A stretch of DNA of 64,000 nt from Spirochaetes bacterium GWB1_60_80 (GTDB lineage: Bacteria; Spirochaetota; Spirochaetia; Treponematales; UBA12059): assembly GCA_001829185.1 (NCBI GenBank), contig MIAR01000035.1, forward strand, positions 1 to 64,000. The letters are read 5' to 3'. A program made the position numbers and the translations under genes. This document shows positions 34,260-38,956 of the stretch, in pieces (positions within the stretch are counted from its first letter, which is position 1; each line of letters starts with the position of its first letter). The notes beneath the pieces were generated by a model. It was not told the DNA's origin. It searched no databases and saw nothing but the letters and a program-made list of their open reading frames with translations.

Positions 34260-34862
34260 TCAGTTCAGCTCGGCCGTTTGTCGGCCGGTCAGCTTGGCCT
34301 TGCCTTTTGTGCCGGTGGGCTGCAGGAAACCGAAGATGCTGCCAAACAGGCCGCCGATGATGTGAGCGAACTCGGAAATGTCGTTGGCCTGCAGAGCGTG
34401 GATCACTTCCTTGCCCAGGAACAGCACCACCACCAGAATGAAGGTAATCGGAATCTCGCCTTTGGCAAAATTGGTAAAGGATGACAGCAGGATCATCATG
34501 AAGACGATGCCGCTGGCGCCCAGGAGGCCGGAGGGAAAGAGGATCAGGTTCAGGACGGCGGTGGCCACAGCCGTGATCAGCATCATGAAAATGAGGTTGC
34601 GGGCGCCGTACAGGCTTTCCAGGATAGGCCCCAAGAGCAGGATGAAGGTCAGGTTGGACAAGAGGTGGCCGATGTCGGCGTGCCCGAAAATGTGCGAAAA
34701 CAGCCGCAGGTAGGACAGTGGATTGGCGAAGCTGAAGCCACCCTGGCCGGCGGCCACGAACAGACCGTCCCGCAGGCCGGGGATGATGGTGCCCAAAAGC
34801 AAAACGACGCCGCAAATCAGTGAAAAGGTCAGCGTCACCGGGGCATTATACTTCAGTTTCAT
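34260..34862 (-). CDS. rhomboid-family intramembrane serine protease
   Basis: 200 residues and six membrane helices. The hallmark GASG (GLLGASGIVFMM) carries the serine nucleophile; the HADIGHLLSN segment lies in an early helix and the catalytic His is in FAHIIGGLFG. It cleaves membrane-spanning substrates; the target is unknown. The motifs are intact, so activity is likely. Single gene. Confidence 0.85.
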   Translation of the reverse strand: MKLKYNAPVTLTFSLICGVVLLLGTIIPGLRDGLFVAAGQGGFSFANPLSYLRLFSHIFGHADIGHLLSNLTFILLLGPILESLYGARNLIFMMLITAVATAVLNLILFPSGLLGASGIVFMMILLSSFTNFAKGEIPITFILVVVLFLGKEVIHALQANDISEFAHIIGGLFGSIFGFLQPTGTKGKAKLTGRQTAELN

Positions 34863-35029: not shown

Positions 35030-35554
35030 ATGGCCACTATCACCCTCAAAGGTAAACCGATTCATAGTTGTGGCGAATTGCCGCGGGTGGGGGACAAGTT
35101 GCCCGCTTTCAAGCTGACCAAAGGCGACCTGTCGGACGTCGATCCGGCCGATTTTCCTGGCAAGGTGCTGATCCTGAACATCGTGCCCAGTCTGGACACC
35201 GGCGTCTGCGCCGCCAGCGCCAGGGCTTTCAATACCCGCATCAAGCAGCTAGGTGGCGCCCTGGTGTTGACTATCAGCCGCGACCTGCCCTTTGCCCAGA
35301 AACGTTTCTGCGAGGCCGAAGGCATCGACGCCGTCATTCCGCTGTCGCAGCTGCGCGACGCCAAATTCGGTCGCGACTACGGCATCGAGCTGGTGGACGG
35401 GCCGCTGACCAGCCTTTTGGGCCGAGCCGTCATCGTGGCCGACGCTAGCGGCCGCATCGTCTATACCCAACTGGTGCCGGAAATCGGCCAGGAACCGGAC
35501 TACGAGTCCGCCCTGGCCGCCGCCAAGGCCGCTGCCGCTGCCGCTGGCTACTAA
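35030..35554 (+). CDS. tpx: thiol peroxidase
   Basis: About 174 residues with the Tpx pattern: peroxidatic Cys in PSLDTGVCAASAR and the resolving Cys in KRFCEAEGI. It reduces peroxides with thioredoxin. AAGGAGA precedes ATG 35030; the frame upstream to 34940 has no family similarity. A good terminator follows. Confidence 0.93.
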   Translation: MATITLKGKPIHSCGELPRVGDKLPAFKLTKGDLSDVDPADFPGKVLILNIVPSLDTGVCAASARAFNTRIKQLGGALVLTISRDLPFAQKRFCEAEGIDAVIPLSQLRDAKFGRDYGIELVDGPLTSLLGRAVIVADASGRIVYTQLVPEIGQEPDYESALAAAKAAAAAAGY

Positions 35555-35622: not shown

Positions 35623-35686
35623 GCCATGTCTGGCTAAGCCGGCCGTGGCGCCGCCAGACATGGCGGCGCCAGCTCTAGCTGGCGCC
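35623..35686 (-). terminator. tandem hairpins after the FliM-FliG fusion
   Basis: Two adjacent perfect hairpins. One is GGCGCCAGCT / AGCTGGCGCC (35665-35686, touching the stop codon) and the other is GCCATGTCTGGC / GCCAGACATGGC (35623-35664). There is no T run on the minus strand. They probably end or protect the mRNA of the switch-protein operon. Confidence 0.55.
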
Positions 35687-37524
35687 TACTCGTCGGACCG
35701 CAAGATGACGATCTGTCCCTCGCCTTCCAGCTGCTTAATGACCTCGACCACCCGGAAGCCGGCGGCGTCGGCGTCGCTCAGGCGCACCCGGCCCATAGCC
35801 TTGAGGGCGGCCAGCAGGCGCTCGGCGATGGCGGCCGGGAAGCGCGCCAGAATCAGGTCGCGGCTTTTCTCGGCCACGCCCTTCAGGGCCAGCAGGATAT
35901 CCTGCTCCGAGGCGCGCGCCAGCACGGCGGCGATCGACTCGTCGTCCAGCAGGCAGATATCCTCGAAGACAAACATGTTGCGCTTGATGGACTCGGCCAA
36001 GGCTGGGTCGCTAGTATCCAGGCTGAGAATAACCTGGCTCTCCACGGCCCGCGGCACCTGGCTGAGGATGTCGACCACCTTGGCCACGCCGCCCAGCTTG
36101 GCTGGCCCGCGCTCACTGTGACGCAGCCGGCCGGCCAGCCAGGCGTCTAGTAGCGACAGCACCACTGGTGGCACCCAGTCGAGGTTGGCCAAGCGGCGCA
36201 CCACCTCGGTCTGGATCCCGGCTGGCAACAAGCTGAGGCTGTCGGCGGCCTGGGCGCTGTCCATGAAGGCCAGCAACAAGGCCTGCAGTTGGCAGCGCTC
36301 GCCGGACAGCAGCAGGGCCAGATCACTGCCGGCCACGCCGGCCAAAGCGGCGAAGGATCGGCGCGCCCCGGCTGGGGCCTCATCCAGGTCGGCCTGGCCG
36401 TAGAGCACGCGGTCGGACAATTCGTCCTGGCGGGCCTGCAAGCCGGCCAGCTCGCCAGACAAACCCTGCAAGGCGCTGCCCAGGCTATTCTGGATCGCCG
36501 CCAGGCCGGACTTGAGGTCCTGCGCCAGAGCGGTCAGCGGGTCGCTTATAACTTCATCACCAGCGTCGGCCGGGTCGCGCGCCTCGGGCACGAAGTTGGC
36601 CGACCAAGCCTCATCCGAGCGCTGCAAGCCATCCAGCGCGGCCACCGCCTCGCCGCCGCAGCGCAGCACGGCCAGACCGCGGTCCAGGGCCGGCAGCGGC
36701 AGCTCGCTGCCAGGCCGCAAGGCGCGCAGGGCGGCCACGCTCAGCTCGCCGGCCGGACACAACAGCTGGCTGTCCAGCGGCACCTGCCGGGCCAAATCCC
36801 GGCTGGGCCGGCGCTGGTCGCCAGCGGGAACCTCGTACCACCAGGCCGGGGTCAGGCGCTTGGCCAGCGGCTCCAGGAATAAAAATGGATACACCAGATT
36901 CAGCCGGCCAGGCTGGCCCGCCAAACTTAGTTCCAGTCCAACCACCAAAACCATCTCGTGCGGCGGCAGAATCTGGCACAGTCGCGGGTCGCTCTCCACC
37001 CCAACCAGGCGGCCGGCGCCGCTGCCCAGACCCTGCCAGGCCTGCCTGAGCTCGTCGAGCAGCCAGGGGGCGGCGGCGCGCAAAGCCTGGCCCTCGGCCT
37101 CGCTCCAGGACGCGGCGGCCAGGCCAGGCGCTTGGTTATCAAGCGGATCGGCCGCCACCAGCTGAGCCACTGGCGCGCCAAACAGGCGTTCCAACAACCG
37201 GCCGGCGCTCTGCGAGTCGAGCTGCAGCAGCAGGTTGGACTTGATCGGGTCCAATGCGGCCAGATAGAAGCCCTGCCGGCCAGTCAGGCTGGCGATGTAG
37301 TCGCCGTAGGTTTGCTGCTCCAATCCGCAGACGCGGACGTCGGCCGGGCAGCGCAATTCGCTGACCAGACGGGCCGCCAGTGCGCTGGCATAGGCTTGAT
37401 GCATCATTTCCAGGGTACGCAGTCGCTCCTTGCTCAGCTTGTCCGGATAGCGGAAATCAAAGGGTTTGGCTAGTCGATCGGCCGCGCGGCCGCCGGCTGC
37501 CAGGAAAGCTACAGGCTGGCCCAT
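35686..37524 (-). CDS. FliM-FliG fusion protein (flagellar switch-type)
   Basis: 612 residues joining two proteins that are normally separate. Residues about 20-225 are FliM: PFDFRYPDKLSKERLRTLEM, the SWSEAEG region, then QILPPHEMVLVVGLEL and FLFLEPL. Residues about 245-305 are a SpoA (FliN-like) domain. A helical linker (about 330-375) leads to FliG middle (ERCQLQALLLAFM in place of EHPQ, about 400-470) and FliG C-terminal domain (LGGVAKVVDIL, MFVFEDICLLDDESI, LLALKGVAEKSRD). FliG-N, which binds FliF, is absent, and so is the N-terminal CheY-binding motif of FliM (LSQxEIDALL type). Its start overlaps fliN by one base. No other flagellar genes are in the window. Confidence 0.9.
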   Translation of the reverse strand: MGQPVAFLAAGGRAADRLAKPFDFRYPDKLSKERLRTLEMMHQAYASALAARLVSELRCPADVRVCGLEQQTYGDYIASLTGRQGFYLAALDPIKSNLLLQLDSQSAGRLLERLFGAPVAQLVAADPLDNQAPGLAAASWSEAEGQALRAAAPWLLDELRQAWQGLGSGAGRLVGVESDPRLCQILPPHEMVLVVGLELSLAGQPGRLNLVYPFLFLEPLAKRLTPAWWYEVPAGDQRRPSRDLARQVPLDSQLLCPAGELSVAALRALRPGSELPLPALDRGLAVLRCGGEAVAALDGLQRSDEAWSANFVPEARDPADAGDEVISDPLTALAQDLKSGLAAIQNSLGSALQGLSGELAGLQARQDELSDRVLYGQADLDEAPAGARRSFAALAGVAGSDLALLLSGERCQLQALLLAFMDSAQAADSLSLLPAGIQTEVVRRLANLDWVPPVVLSLLDAWLAGRLRHSERGPAKLGGVAKVVDILSQVPRAVESQVILSLDTSDPALAESIKRNMFVFEDICLLDDESIAAVLARASEQDILLALKGVAEKSRDLILARFPAAIAERLLAALKAMGRVRLSDADAAGFRVVEVIKQLEGEGQIVILRSDE

Positions 37525-37781
37525 CAGGTCCTCCCCGCGGCCGGCCCAGCCCGGCCCCGTAATTCGGTGATGCGGATGCCGTAATACTCGTCAATGATTA
37601 CCACTTCGCCGGTGGCGATACATTCATCACCCACCCGGAACTGCACCGGTTGGCCGGCCAGGGAATCAAGCTCCACGATGCTGCCCTGGCCGATGCCGGC
37701 CAACTGGGCCAGCGTCAGCTCGCGCTCGCCCAAAACCACCTGTACCCGGACCCGGGCGTCGTCAATGCTGCCAGTTTTCAT
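37524..37781 (-). CDS. fliN: FliN-like SpoA-domain protein
   Basis: 85 residues, essentially one SpoA domain: VRVQVVLGERELTLAQLAGIGQGSIVELD, then VGDECIATGEVVIIDEYYGIRI. This is the FliN/YscQ-C signature that builds the base of the C-ring. The long N-terminal extension of many FliN proteins is missing. It overlaps the upstream SpoA gene (ATGA) and the FliM-FliG start (TGATG). Confidence 0.88.
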   Translation of the reverse strand: MKTGSIDDARVRVQVVLGERELTLAQLAGIGQGSIVELDSLAGQPVQFRVGDECIATGEVVIIDEYYGIRITELRGRAGPAAGRT

Positions 37782-38050
37782 AGTGCCTCCCCGCTTGCTT
37801 CCATCATTCGGTCGACCACGAAGGCCGAGCCGCCGGGCCGCTGTTCCAGGTGGCCTTCAGCCACCAGTACGCCGCCGGCTTCCAGCCAAAGCCGGTCGCC
37901 CGTCGGCGCCGCCCACTGCAGGCGGCCGCTGCGGCGCGCCCTGGCGACGGCTGCGGCACTCAGTTGACTGTTCGCCAGCACCACGTTCACCGCCAACGCC
38001 AGATCGGCCACCTGCACCGTGGCCGACTTAGCCGCGTTATCTTTTGTCAT
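37778..38050 (-). CDS. second small SpoA-like protein
   Basis: 90 residues from ATG 38050 (GAGGAGG upstream). The sequence VQVADLALAVNVVLANSQLSAA, then LQWAAPTGDRLWLEAGGVLVAEG keeps the SpoA plan of an N-terminal strand-helix, central strands and a Gly turn, but is more diverged than the FliN neighbour. It probably pairs with it, as FliN-type domains form homo- and heterodimers. First gene of the three-gene switch operon. Confidence 0.7.
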   Translation of the reverse strand: MTKDNAAKSATVQVADLALAVNVVLANSQLSAAAVARARRSGRLQWAAPTGDRLWLEAGGVLVAEGHLEQRPGGSAFVVDRMMEASGEAL

Positions 38051-38169
38051 CCTGTCCTCCTCACGCCGGGAGCCGCTATTGGCCGCTCCCGGCGCATGAG
38101 ACAAGCATAAACCCGCTTACGGGCTGCGGTCTTGCACTATCCTGCGTATTTAAAAACCTAAAAGCGACA

Positions 38170-38781
38170 CTATCCTGCGTTTTGGCGCCAGGCGCGCGGC
38201 GTGCAGCCCATCAGGCGCAGGAAGTAGCGGTTGAAGAAGGAAAGGTTATTGTAACCGACGGCGCTGGCGATCTCGATGATGGAAAGCTGCGACGACTTGA
38301 GCAGCAGGCAGGCTCGCCGCACCCGCTGGCGGTTGAGGTACTCGAACAGCGGGTAGCCGGCCAGAGCCTTGAAGCGGCGCGAGAAGTCGCCTGAGTTGAT
38401 GGCGCACTTGTCCACGAAAAATTCGATGCTGAAGGCCTGATCAAAGTGGCGGTCGAGGTAGTGGCGGGCGTCGGCGATGCTCCAGACCCCGGCCGGCTCT
38501 TGCCAGGTGACGGCTGTGGCGGCCGTGGATGTAGCCTGGCTACCGGCCGCTGTGTCGCCCGGCGCCAGCCGCTCCAGCAGGCTAACTAGGATTTCGCGTT
38601 CCGCCGCCGGCTGGCCACCCGGCCCCAGCGGCCCCCGCGCCGCCTGGCGCAGGCGCTCGCCCAAGGCGGCCAGGCGCTCCGCCTCGCTGCCGGCCAGGTT
38701 CAAGTACCAGCTGGCTGCGGCATCGTCAAGGGTAAGCTGGTAGCGTCTGCCACCGTAATCGAGACTGAAACTGTGGGCCAT
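38170..38781 (-). CDS. AraC-family transcriptional regulator
   Basis: 203 residues. The C-terminal double HTH (about 100-200) reads SIEFFVDKCAINSGDFSRRFKA and LSIIEIASAVGYNNLSFFNRYF, then GCTPRAWRQ. The short N-terminal region has no recognised ligand domain. It lies 119 bp upstream of the SpoA operon on the same strand, so it may control or be cotranscribed with it. Confidence 0.85.
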   Translation of the reverse strand: MAHSFSLDYGGRRYQLTLDDAAASWYLNLAGSEAERLAALGERLRQAARGPLGPGGQPAAEREILVSLLERLAPGDTAAGSQATSTAATAVTWQEPAGVWSIADARHYLDRHFDQAFSIEFFVDKCAINSGDFSRRFKALAGYPLFEYLNRQRVRRACLLLKSSQLSIIEIASAVGYNNLSFFNRYFLRLMGCTPRAWRQNAG

Positions 38782-38956
38782 GCGCGCTCCTGAGTACCTG
38801 ATACAAGCCTGTTAGCAGTGTAGCCGCGCCGACCGGCTTGTCAAGCGTCGCCTCGCTGCTCAAGCGCCAGTCAGCCGCTTGCAGAGTGGCCGCCCCTGAA
38901 TCATACTGTCTTCATGGCGCGGCGCCCAGCTGGCCGCCCAGCGAAAGGATGACATC

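Follow-up and report, generated by a model that had tools for sequence, protein, structure and literature searches.

The flagellar C-ring is usually regarded as one indivisible rotor and switch, in which FliM1-FliN3 units are carried on a ring of FliG. The locus described here lies in a 64,000-nucleotide stretch of the Spirochaetes bacterium GWB1_60_80 genome (the window) and encodes the same FliM middle, SpoA and FliG middle and C-terminal folds, together with the MFVF hinge and the Gly-Gly linker. In contrast to the C-ring, these parts are rearranged into a new chain: FliM and FliG are joined, FliG-N (anchoring), the CheY-binding motif and the torque charges are absent, and the gene sits outside the flagellar operons under its own, apparently dedicated, AraC-type regulator.

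FliF-FliG fusions are known as laboratory constructs or mutants. The fusion in PDB 8z4d likewise has FliG in one chain with a neighbouring rotor protein, but it joins FliG to the MS-ring, whereas the window fusion joins FliG to FliM. Extra or fused C-ring proteins of the FliM/FliN/SpoA family also occur in the diversified C-rings of Campylobacter jejuni, where FliY-type proteins are parts of a working motor and, unlike the fusion, contain no FliG (PMC6946799). Spirochaetes often have two FliGs, FliG1 and FliG2 (PMC7225975), and in Borrelia, as in the genome analysed here, the second exists in addition to the main one. The two Borrelia proteins retain all three domains (N, M and C) and are unfused to FliM, whereas the fusions form a separate branch in the FliG tree. 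The second FliG of the window's genome (contig C46; L082:4435-5628, plus strand; 397 aa) has three domains and deviates at the MFxF and torque positions. In the FliG tree it makes up a clade of its own, and it is probably a paralogue of the spirochaete FliG1 type.

SpoA pairs in an AraC-regulated operon also occur in secretion systems. The SctQ/HrcQ sorting platform shares this combination with the present locus, but the ten carrier genomes analysed for it have no second export gate, and FliG domains are foreign to SctQ. The likeness that we propose to the EpsE clutch (PMC3000366) and the YcgR brake (PMC10140304), which act at FliG, is that of an inducible protein on the rotor that reduces its output. 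Neither is related in sequence to the proteins of the fusion operon, which are built from rotor parts. The first-pass annotation of the window knew of no described FliM-FliG fusion, and we found none in the openly licensed full-text literature, which is a weak negative.

Architecture of the fusion and its SpoA partners

The genes of the operon and the domains of the fusion are as follows.

35686..37524, minus strand: FliM(middle)-SpoA-long helix-FliG(middle)-FliG(C) fusion, 612 aa (Pfam, PDB sequence matches, AlphaFold2 model, relatives)
36853..37461, minus strand: FliM middle domain, residues 22-224 (PF02154, 1.3e-27), CheY-binding N-motif absent
36580..36786, minus strand: SpoA (FliN-like C-terminal) domain within the fusion, about residues 247-315 (AlphaFold2 fold matches)
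36379..36540, minus strand: one long helix, residues 329-382, at the place of FliG-N (AlphaFold2 secondary structure)
36115..36321, minus strand: FliG middle domain, residues 402-470 (PF14841, 3.5e-14), EHPQ motif here ERCQ
35704..36024, minus strand: FliG C-terminal domain, residues 501-607 (PF01706, 7.6e-26; alignment with T. maritima FliG, 1lkv)
37524..37781, minus strand: SpoA2, FliN-like SpoA protein, 85 aa (PF01052, 5.7e-20), start overlapping the SpoA1 stop
37778..38050, minus strand: SpoA1, divergent SpoA protein, 90 aa from an ATG behind AGGAGG (weak Pfam score, profile match)

The fusion reading frame is intact, and its FliM, FliG_M and FliG_C Pfam scores all exceed the curated cut-offs. 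The FliM middle domain PF02154 is present in 13/13 members of the fusion family, while the window protein falls below the TIGR01397 FliM equivalog cut-off (116.6 bits against 219.6). Sequence matches to solved structures are 1lkv for FliG middle and C (4.8e-32) and 3soh for FliM middle (1.8e-15). An AlphaFold2 model built from 13 aligned relatives has a mean pLDDT of 73 and a pTM of 0.50, so the relative placement of its domains is unreliable. Within it, the FliM middle fold matches H. pylori FliM (5x0z, Z 24) and the FliG middle and C-terminal domains match 3usy (Z 16.8). The internal SpoA domain is unscored by Pfam in the window protein and matched in two of 13 relatives; its model (about residues 243-320) resembles YscQ-C (3uep, Z 5.3) and HrcQb (1o9y, Z 5.0). 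The first-pass annotation had placed FliM, SpoA and FliG middle and C domains in one chain and had named a domain search as the test that could overturn this; FliM and FliG_C were both recovered above their cut-offs.

Two small SpoA genes with overlapping starts had also been noted ahead of the fusion gene, and the overlaps are seen as ATGA at 37778-37781 (SpoA1/SpoA2) and TGATG at 37524 (SpoA2/fusion). The window SpoA1 is only weakly SpoA by Pfam (0.009), and it is through its family that the sequence is recognised as a diverged SpoA: nine of 11 members match SpoA in Pfam (best 3.6e-5), and the SpoA1 and SpoA2 profiles align with a probability of 93.9%. A single-chain model of SpoA1, of low confidence (pLDDT 66), has a SpoA-like strand order. 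The spoA1 leader contains a strong inverted repeat, CGCCGGGAGC...GCTCCCGGCG (window 38060-38095), immediately ahead of the AGGAGG ribosome site.

Features lost and kept

The CheY-binding motif (EIDxLL) is present in 17/17 canonical FliMs and in none of the 14 fusions with a complete N-terminus. Pfam finds no FliG_N (PF14842) in the window protein, and both absences are as first annotated. Weak FliG_N matches in three relatives (best 3.2e-4) were taken as cross-matches of FliG_M; the position was examined for L019 alone, in which the match (residues 414-490) overlies FliG_M.

The torque features had been read differently. The LDD that the first-pass annotation took as a retained part of the FliG-C torque helix follows immediately on MFVFEDI, outside that helix; aligned with T. 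maritima FliG, the window protein has alanine at the equivalents of Arg281, Asp288 and Asp289. The Arg281 equivalent is retained in 0/14 fusions that have the position and the Asp288 equivalent in none (one has Glu), and no fusion has the Asp288/Asp289 pair. The Lys264-equivalent lysine is retained in nearly all. Given the loss of the torque residues, a second torque-generating motor is unlikely and was set aside.

Other regions are better kept. The MFVF hinge is present in 14 of 16 fusions and the Gly-Gly linker in all. For alignment columns with 90% or higher conservation in canonical FliG, the mean share retained by the fusions is 96% around the MFxF hinge, 78% for linker plus ARM_C, 75% for ARM_M and 53% for the C1-6 torque part. 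Two motifs of the FliM-FliG contact, GGxG and EHPQ, survive unchanged in L018 and L030, which are deep members; most other fusions have altered forms.

A linked AraC-type gene and its candidate operator

The conserved unit is larger than first annotated and consists of an AraC-type gene and spoA1-spoA2-fusion; the regulator gene at 38170-38781 had been overlooked as part of it. The unit and its control region contain the following further features.

38170..38781, minus strand: AraC-type transcription regulator, 203 aa (HTH_18, 3.7e-20; neighbourhood comparison)
38817..38844, minus strand: sigma-70-like promoter of araC, TTGACA-16-TACACT (consensus scan, 10/12; by itself no functional evidence)
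38168..38180, minus strand: candidate operator site 1, ACGCAGGATAGTG (direct repeat), overlapping the araC 3' end, 33 bp from site 2
38128..38144, minus strand: candidate operator site 2, CAGGATAGTGCAAGACC (match to CAAGATAGTGCAAGACC), with a ACGCAGGATAGTG copy at 38135-38147
38104..38133, minus strand: promoter-like element, AAGACC (-35-like, beside operator site 2), 18 bp, TATGCT (-10-like) (upstream alignment)

A search for chains with FliM and FliG_C and a listing of their neighbours, as had been suggested, gave further spirochaetal loci, and an AraC-type gene adjoins spoA1-spoA2-fusion in all 14 loci with a readable flank. It is mostly upstream; in L030, L079 and L080 it is downstream, overlapping or closely following the fusion gene. 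Beyond it, no other neighbour is conserved around these loci. One relative has an extra ORF of about 170 aa with HETMHAF between araC with its tandem operator and spoA1 (L149:400-930). In the window the unit is flanked by genes for a thiol-peroxidase-like redoxin (35030-35554) and a rhomboid-like protein (34260-34862). The position of the redoxin gene is unconserved in other families. A mobile element was considered, as the flanks vary between families, but the same-genus relative L013 has the same PhoH and rhomboid genes as the window, which points to vertical descent.

Two copies of ACGCAGGATAGTG lie 33 bp apart between araC and spoA1 in the window. At the same position, five relatives (L012, L015, L149, L153 and L150) have a tandem pair of CAAGATAGTGC at 32 bp. 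In L016, L017, L077 and L152 only the copy nearer the promoter can be recognised, and in L018 and L079 that copy is weak; the alignment of the relatives' upstream regions revealed no such motif upstream in L030 and L080. In the better-conserved relatives, AAGACC comes after the tandem motif, then a spacing of 17-18 bp and a hexamer resembling TATNNT. These promoter and operator calls are consensus-based, and the assignment of the hexamers is our own reading. Promoters that depend on an AraC-type activator usually have this layout, with an operator beside a poor -35 box, and the elements of an AraC-activated operon (AraC-type gene, tandem operator, upstream promoter with a weak -35) are all recognisable here. 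Linkage suggests that the adjoining AraC-type protein binds the tandem sites.

The exact CAAGATAGTGC tandem occurs once in the 3.6-Mb genome, at the fusion locus, and operator site 2 is the sole place in that genome within two mismatches of CAAGATAGTGCAAGACC. In the relatives, nearly all exact-tandem matches are the same fusion locus; additional single-site near-matches are no commoner than for a reversed control pattern, and no wider regulon is visible among them. Since the exact tandem is unique in its own genome, the AraC-type protein looks like a dedicated local activator, and it appears to have one target, the fusion operon.

Distribution and descent

A scan of one genome per species (84,980 species) gave 11 further fusion loci, all spirochaetal; matches in other groups were ordinary FliG. 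Whole-genome searches found the full-length fusion in 9/393 genomes of the phylum and 12/294 of the order. With fragments counted cautiously, the carriers number at least 16 genomes in at least five family codes, and all, with perhaps one exception, are uncultured assemblies.

Recurrence in at least 16 genomes from separate assemblies argues against an assembly error, which the first-pass annotation had raised as grounds for rejecting the fusion; so do the formation of essentially one clade by each half and dN/dS values of 0.23-0.34 for close fusion pairs. The Pfam scores and dN/dS likewise exclude a chance ORF or a chance domain. The fusion is under purifying selection, and a rearranged C-ring chain has thus been kept in several spirochaete families. 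Frames are intact except in the single-contig genome G203 (C1 near 2964000-2966000; L139/L111/L143). There an AraC-type gene and SpoA1 accompany a FliM-SpoA chain, the FliG_C of which follows in a different frame (a frameshift), and SpoA2 is absent; this copy is probably a decayed version of the operon.

In the FliM-half tree the fusions group together (SH-aLRT 99), and in the FliG-half tree 13 of 14 do so (SH-aLRT 97), the long-branched L080 being unplaced. The inner branching order is similar in the two trees. The simplest account of this grouping is a single old FliM-FliG fusion event, with inheritance as a unit and frequent loss. The fusion branches are much longer than those of canonical proteins from the same genomes.

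Flagellar context and possible functions

In the window's genome, the canonical fliG, fliM and fliN genes are located on contig C23, separate from the fusion contig. The description of the operon as lying away from flagellar genes therefore holds, and the full separate set whose presence was to be checked exists. Canonical FliM is present in 9/9 carriers of the phylum sample. Exactly one FlhA is found in each of ten fusion genomes, and exactly one FliF match in nine of them and none in the tenth; with one FlhA and at most one FliF per carrier, a second flagellum or secretion system is unlikely. Earlier, the operon had been tentatively interpreted as a self-contained C-ring-like assembly. A compact conserved set apart from flagellar genes is indeed present, but the unit also includes its dedicated AraC-type regulator.

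The operon products are probably either a conditional brake or an independent ring. The sequences show a chain of the composition given above, with its losses and retained hinge, in an operon with a conserved control region. On that basis we tentatively propose that the operon provides a conditionally made, torque-dead wedge of C-ring that docks on the C-ring of the flagellum and reduces or rewires the output of the motor. The AraC-type activator would bind the tandem sites upstream of spoA1 and turn on the spoA1-spoA2-fliM.fliG promoter. The fusion chain would then supply the roles of FliM and of FliG middle and C, normally divided between two proteins, while its SpoA domain together with SpoA1 and SpoA2 would replace the FliM-C/FliN base. 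Having lost FliG-N, the fusion alone would not be anchorable to FliF; having lost the CheY motif, it would be deaf to CheY-P via FliM-N; and lacking the Arg/Asp/Asp set, it should take no stator torque. The wedge may dock on the flagellar C-ring or be built into it, where it would lower or rewire motor output as a brake, clutch or clamp.

We prefer docking on three grounds: it is the assembly surfaces that are retained, the carriers have a single ordinary flagellar system, and there is precedent for brakes and clutches that act on FliG (EpsE, PMC3000366; YcgR, PMC10140304). Against docking, evolution of the fusions is far faster than that of canonical proteins from the same genomes, the GGxG and EHPQ contact motifs are altered in most of them, and most flagellated spirochaetes do without the fusion (12/294 order genomes carry it).

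The fast evolution and altered contact motifs fit a free-standing ring at least as well, and this is the main rival to docking, though we consider it somewhat unlikely. Fusion chains would polymerise by stacking of their FliG middle and C domains and by FliM contacts, with SpoA1 and SpoA2 closing the structure below, to give an AraC-inducible C-ring-like ring or scaffold off the motor with a function other than rotation, for example as a cytoplasmic scaffold or sensor. Such a ring would account for the loss of the FliF and CheY contacts alongside retention of the polymerisation hinge and Gly-Gly linker, for the joint divergence of the FliM and FliG surfaces, for rapid evolution uncoupled from the canonical proteins and for the full set of SpoA partners in the same operon. 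A second C-ring-derived protein of the same genome, described below, likewise has a regulator, not flagellar genes, as its partner. Yet no membrane or client gene is conserved beside the fusion locus, and no aflagellate carrier turned up, which says little as carriers are few. Action on the motor would make the fusion a brake built from the rotor's own parts; action elsewhere would mean a C-ring with a role outside the motor. With FliM and FliG naturally in one chain, their stoichiometry is fixed at 1:1, which makes the protein a useful structural object, and it may crystallise or form rings without FliF.

It is improbable that the proteins serve as a titration decoy, binding soluble FliM, FliN, FliH or export factors and so limiting new flagella without forming a ring. 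The retained FliM and SpoA folds and the inducible control implied by the tandem operator and promoter-like element would suit a decoy, but it would have no need to keep FliG middle and C with an almost invariant MFVF hinge.

Still less probable is that the C-ring-like proteins act as a sensor controlling the AraC-type protein, which would in turn regulate distant genes. There are parallels in the link of C-ring assembly to FlrA transcription via FlhG (PMC12826062, review) and in flagellum-associated two-component systems that also connect C-ring state to transcription (PMC7064773). The strict linkage of the operon to its regulator would be consistent with this, as would the presence of Crp/Fnr genes, or in one case an ECF sigma/anti-sigma pair, beside an unrelated C-ring-derived protein. 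However, the single visible operator target, with near-matches in relatives at the level of the reversed control, speaks against a wide regulon.

It is highly improbable, and largely refuted, that the operon belongs to an additional flagellar or type III export system or is a relic in decay: C-ring proteins do belong to such systems and the G203 copy is frameshifted and lacks SpoA2, but carriers have one FlhA and never more than one FliF, and outside G203 frames are intact with dN/dS in the range given above.

Other C-ring-derived proteins in spirochaetes

Outside the window, the same genome encodes a 440-aa SpoA-SpoA-FliM protein, with the domain order reversed (C35:70874-72196; L084:4875-6197, minus strand), whose gene is followed directly by one for a Crp/Fnr-type regulator. 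This pair is also found in G379, G011, G163, G053 and G015, while in G074 the SpoA-SpoA-FliM gene adjoins an ECF sigma and anti-sigma pair instead. Together with the AraC-linked fusion, these cases place C-ring-derived proteins beside a regulator in at least two unrelated spirochaete arrangements. Beside a GGDEF-like protein, the genome further has an ORF of 232 aa that is FliG_C-like over part of its length (L004:1075-1773, minus strand; C5:3243-3392), and FliG_C fragments similar to this ORF occur in several relatives.
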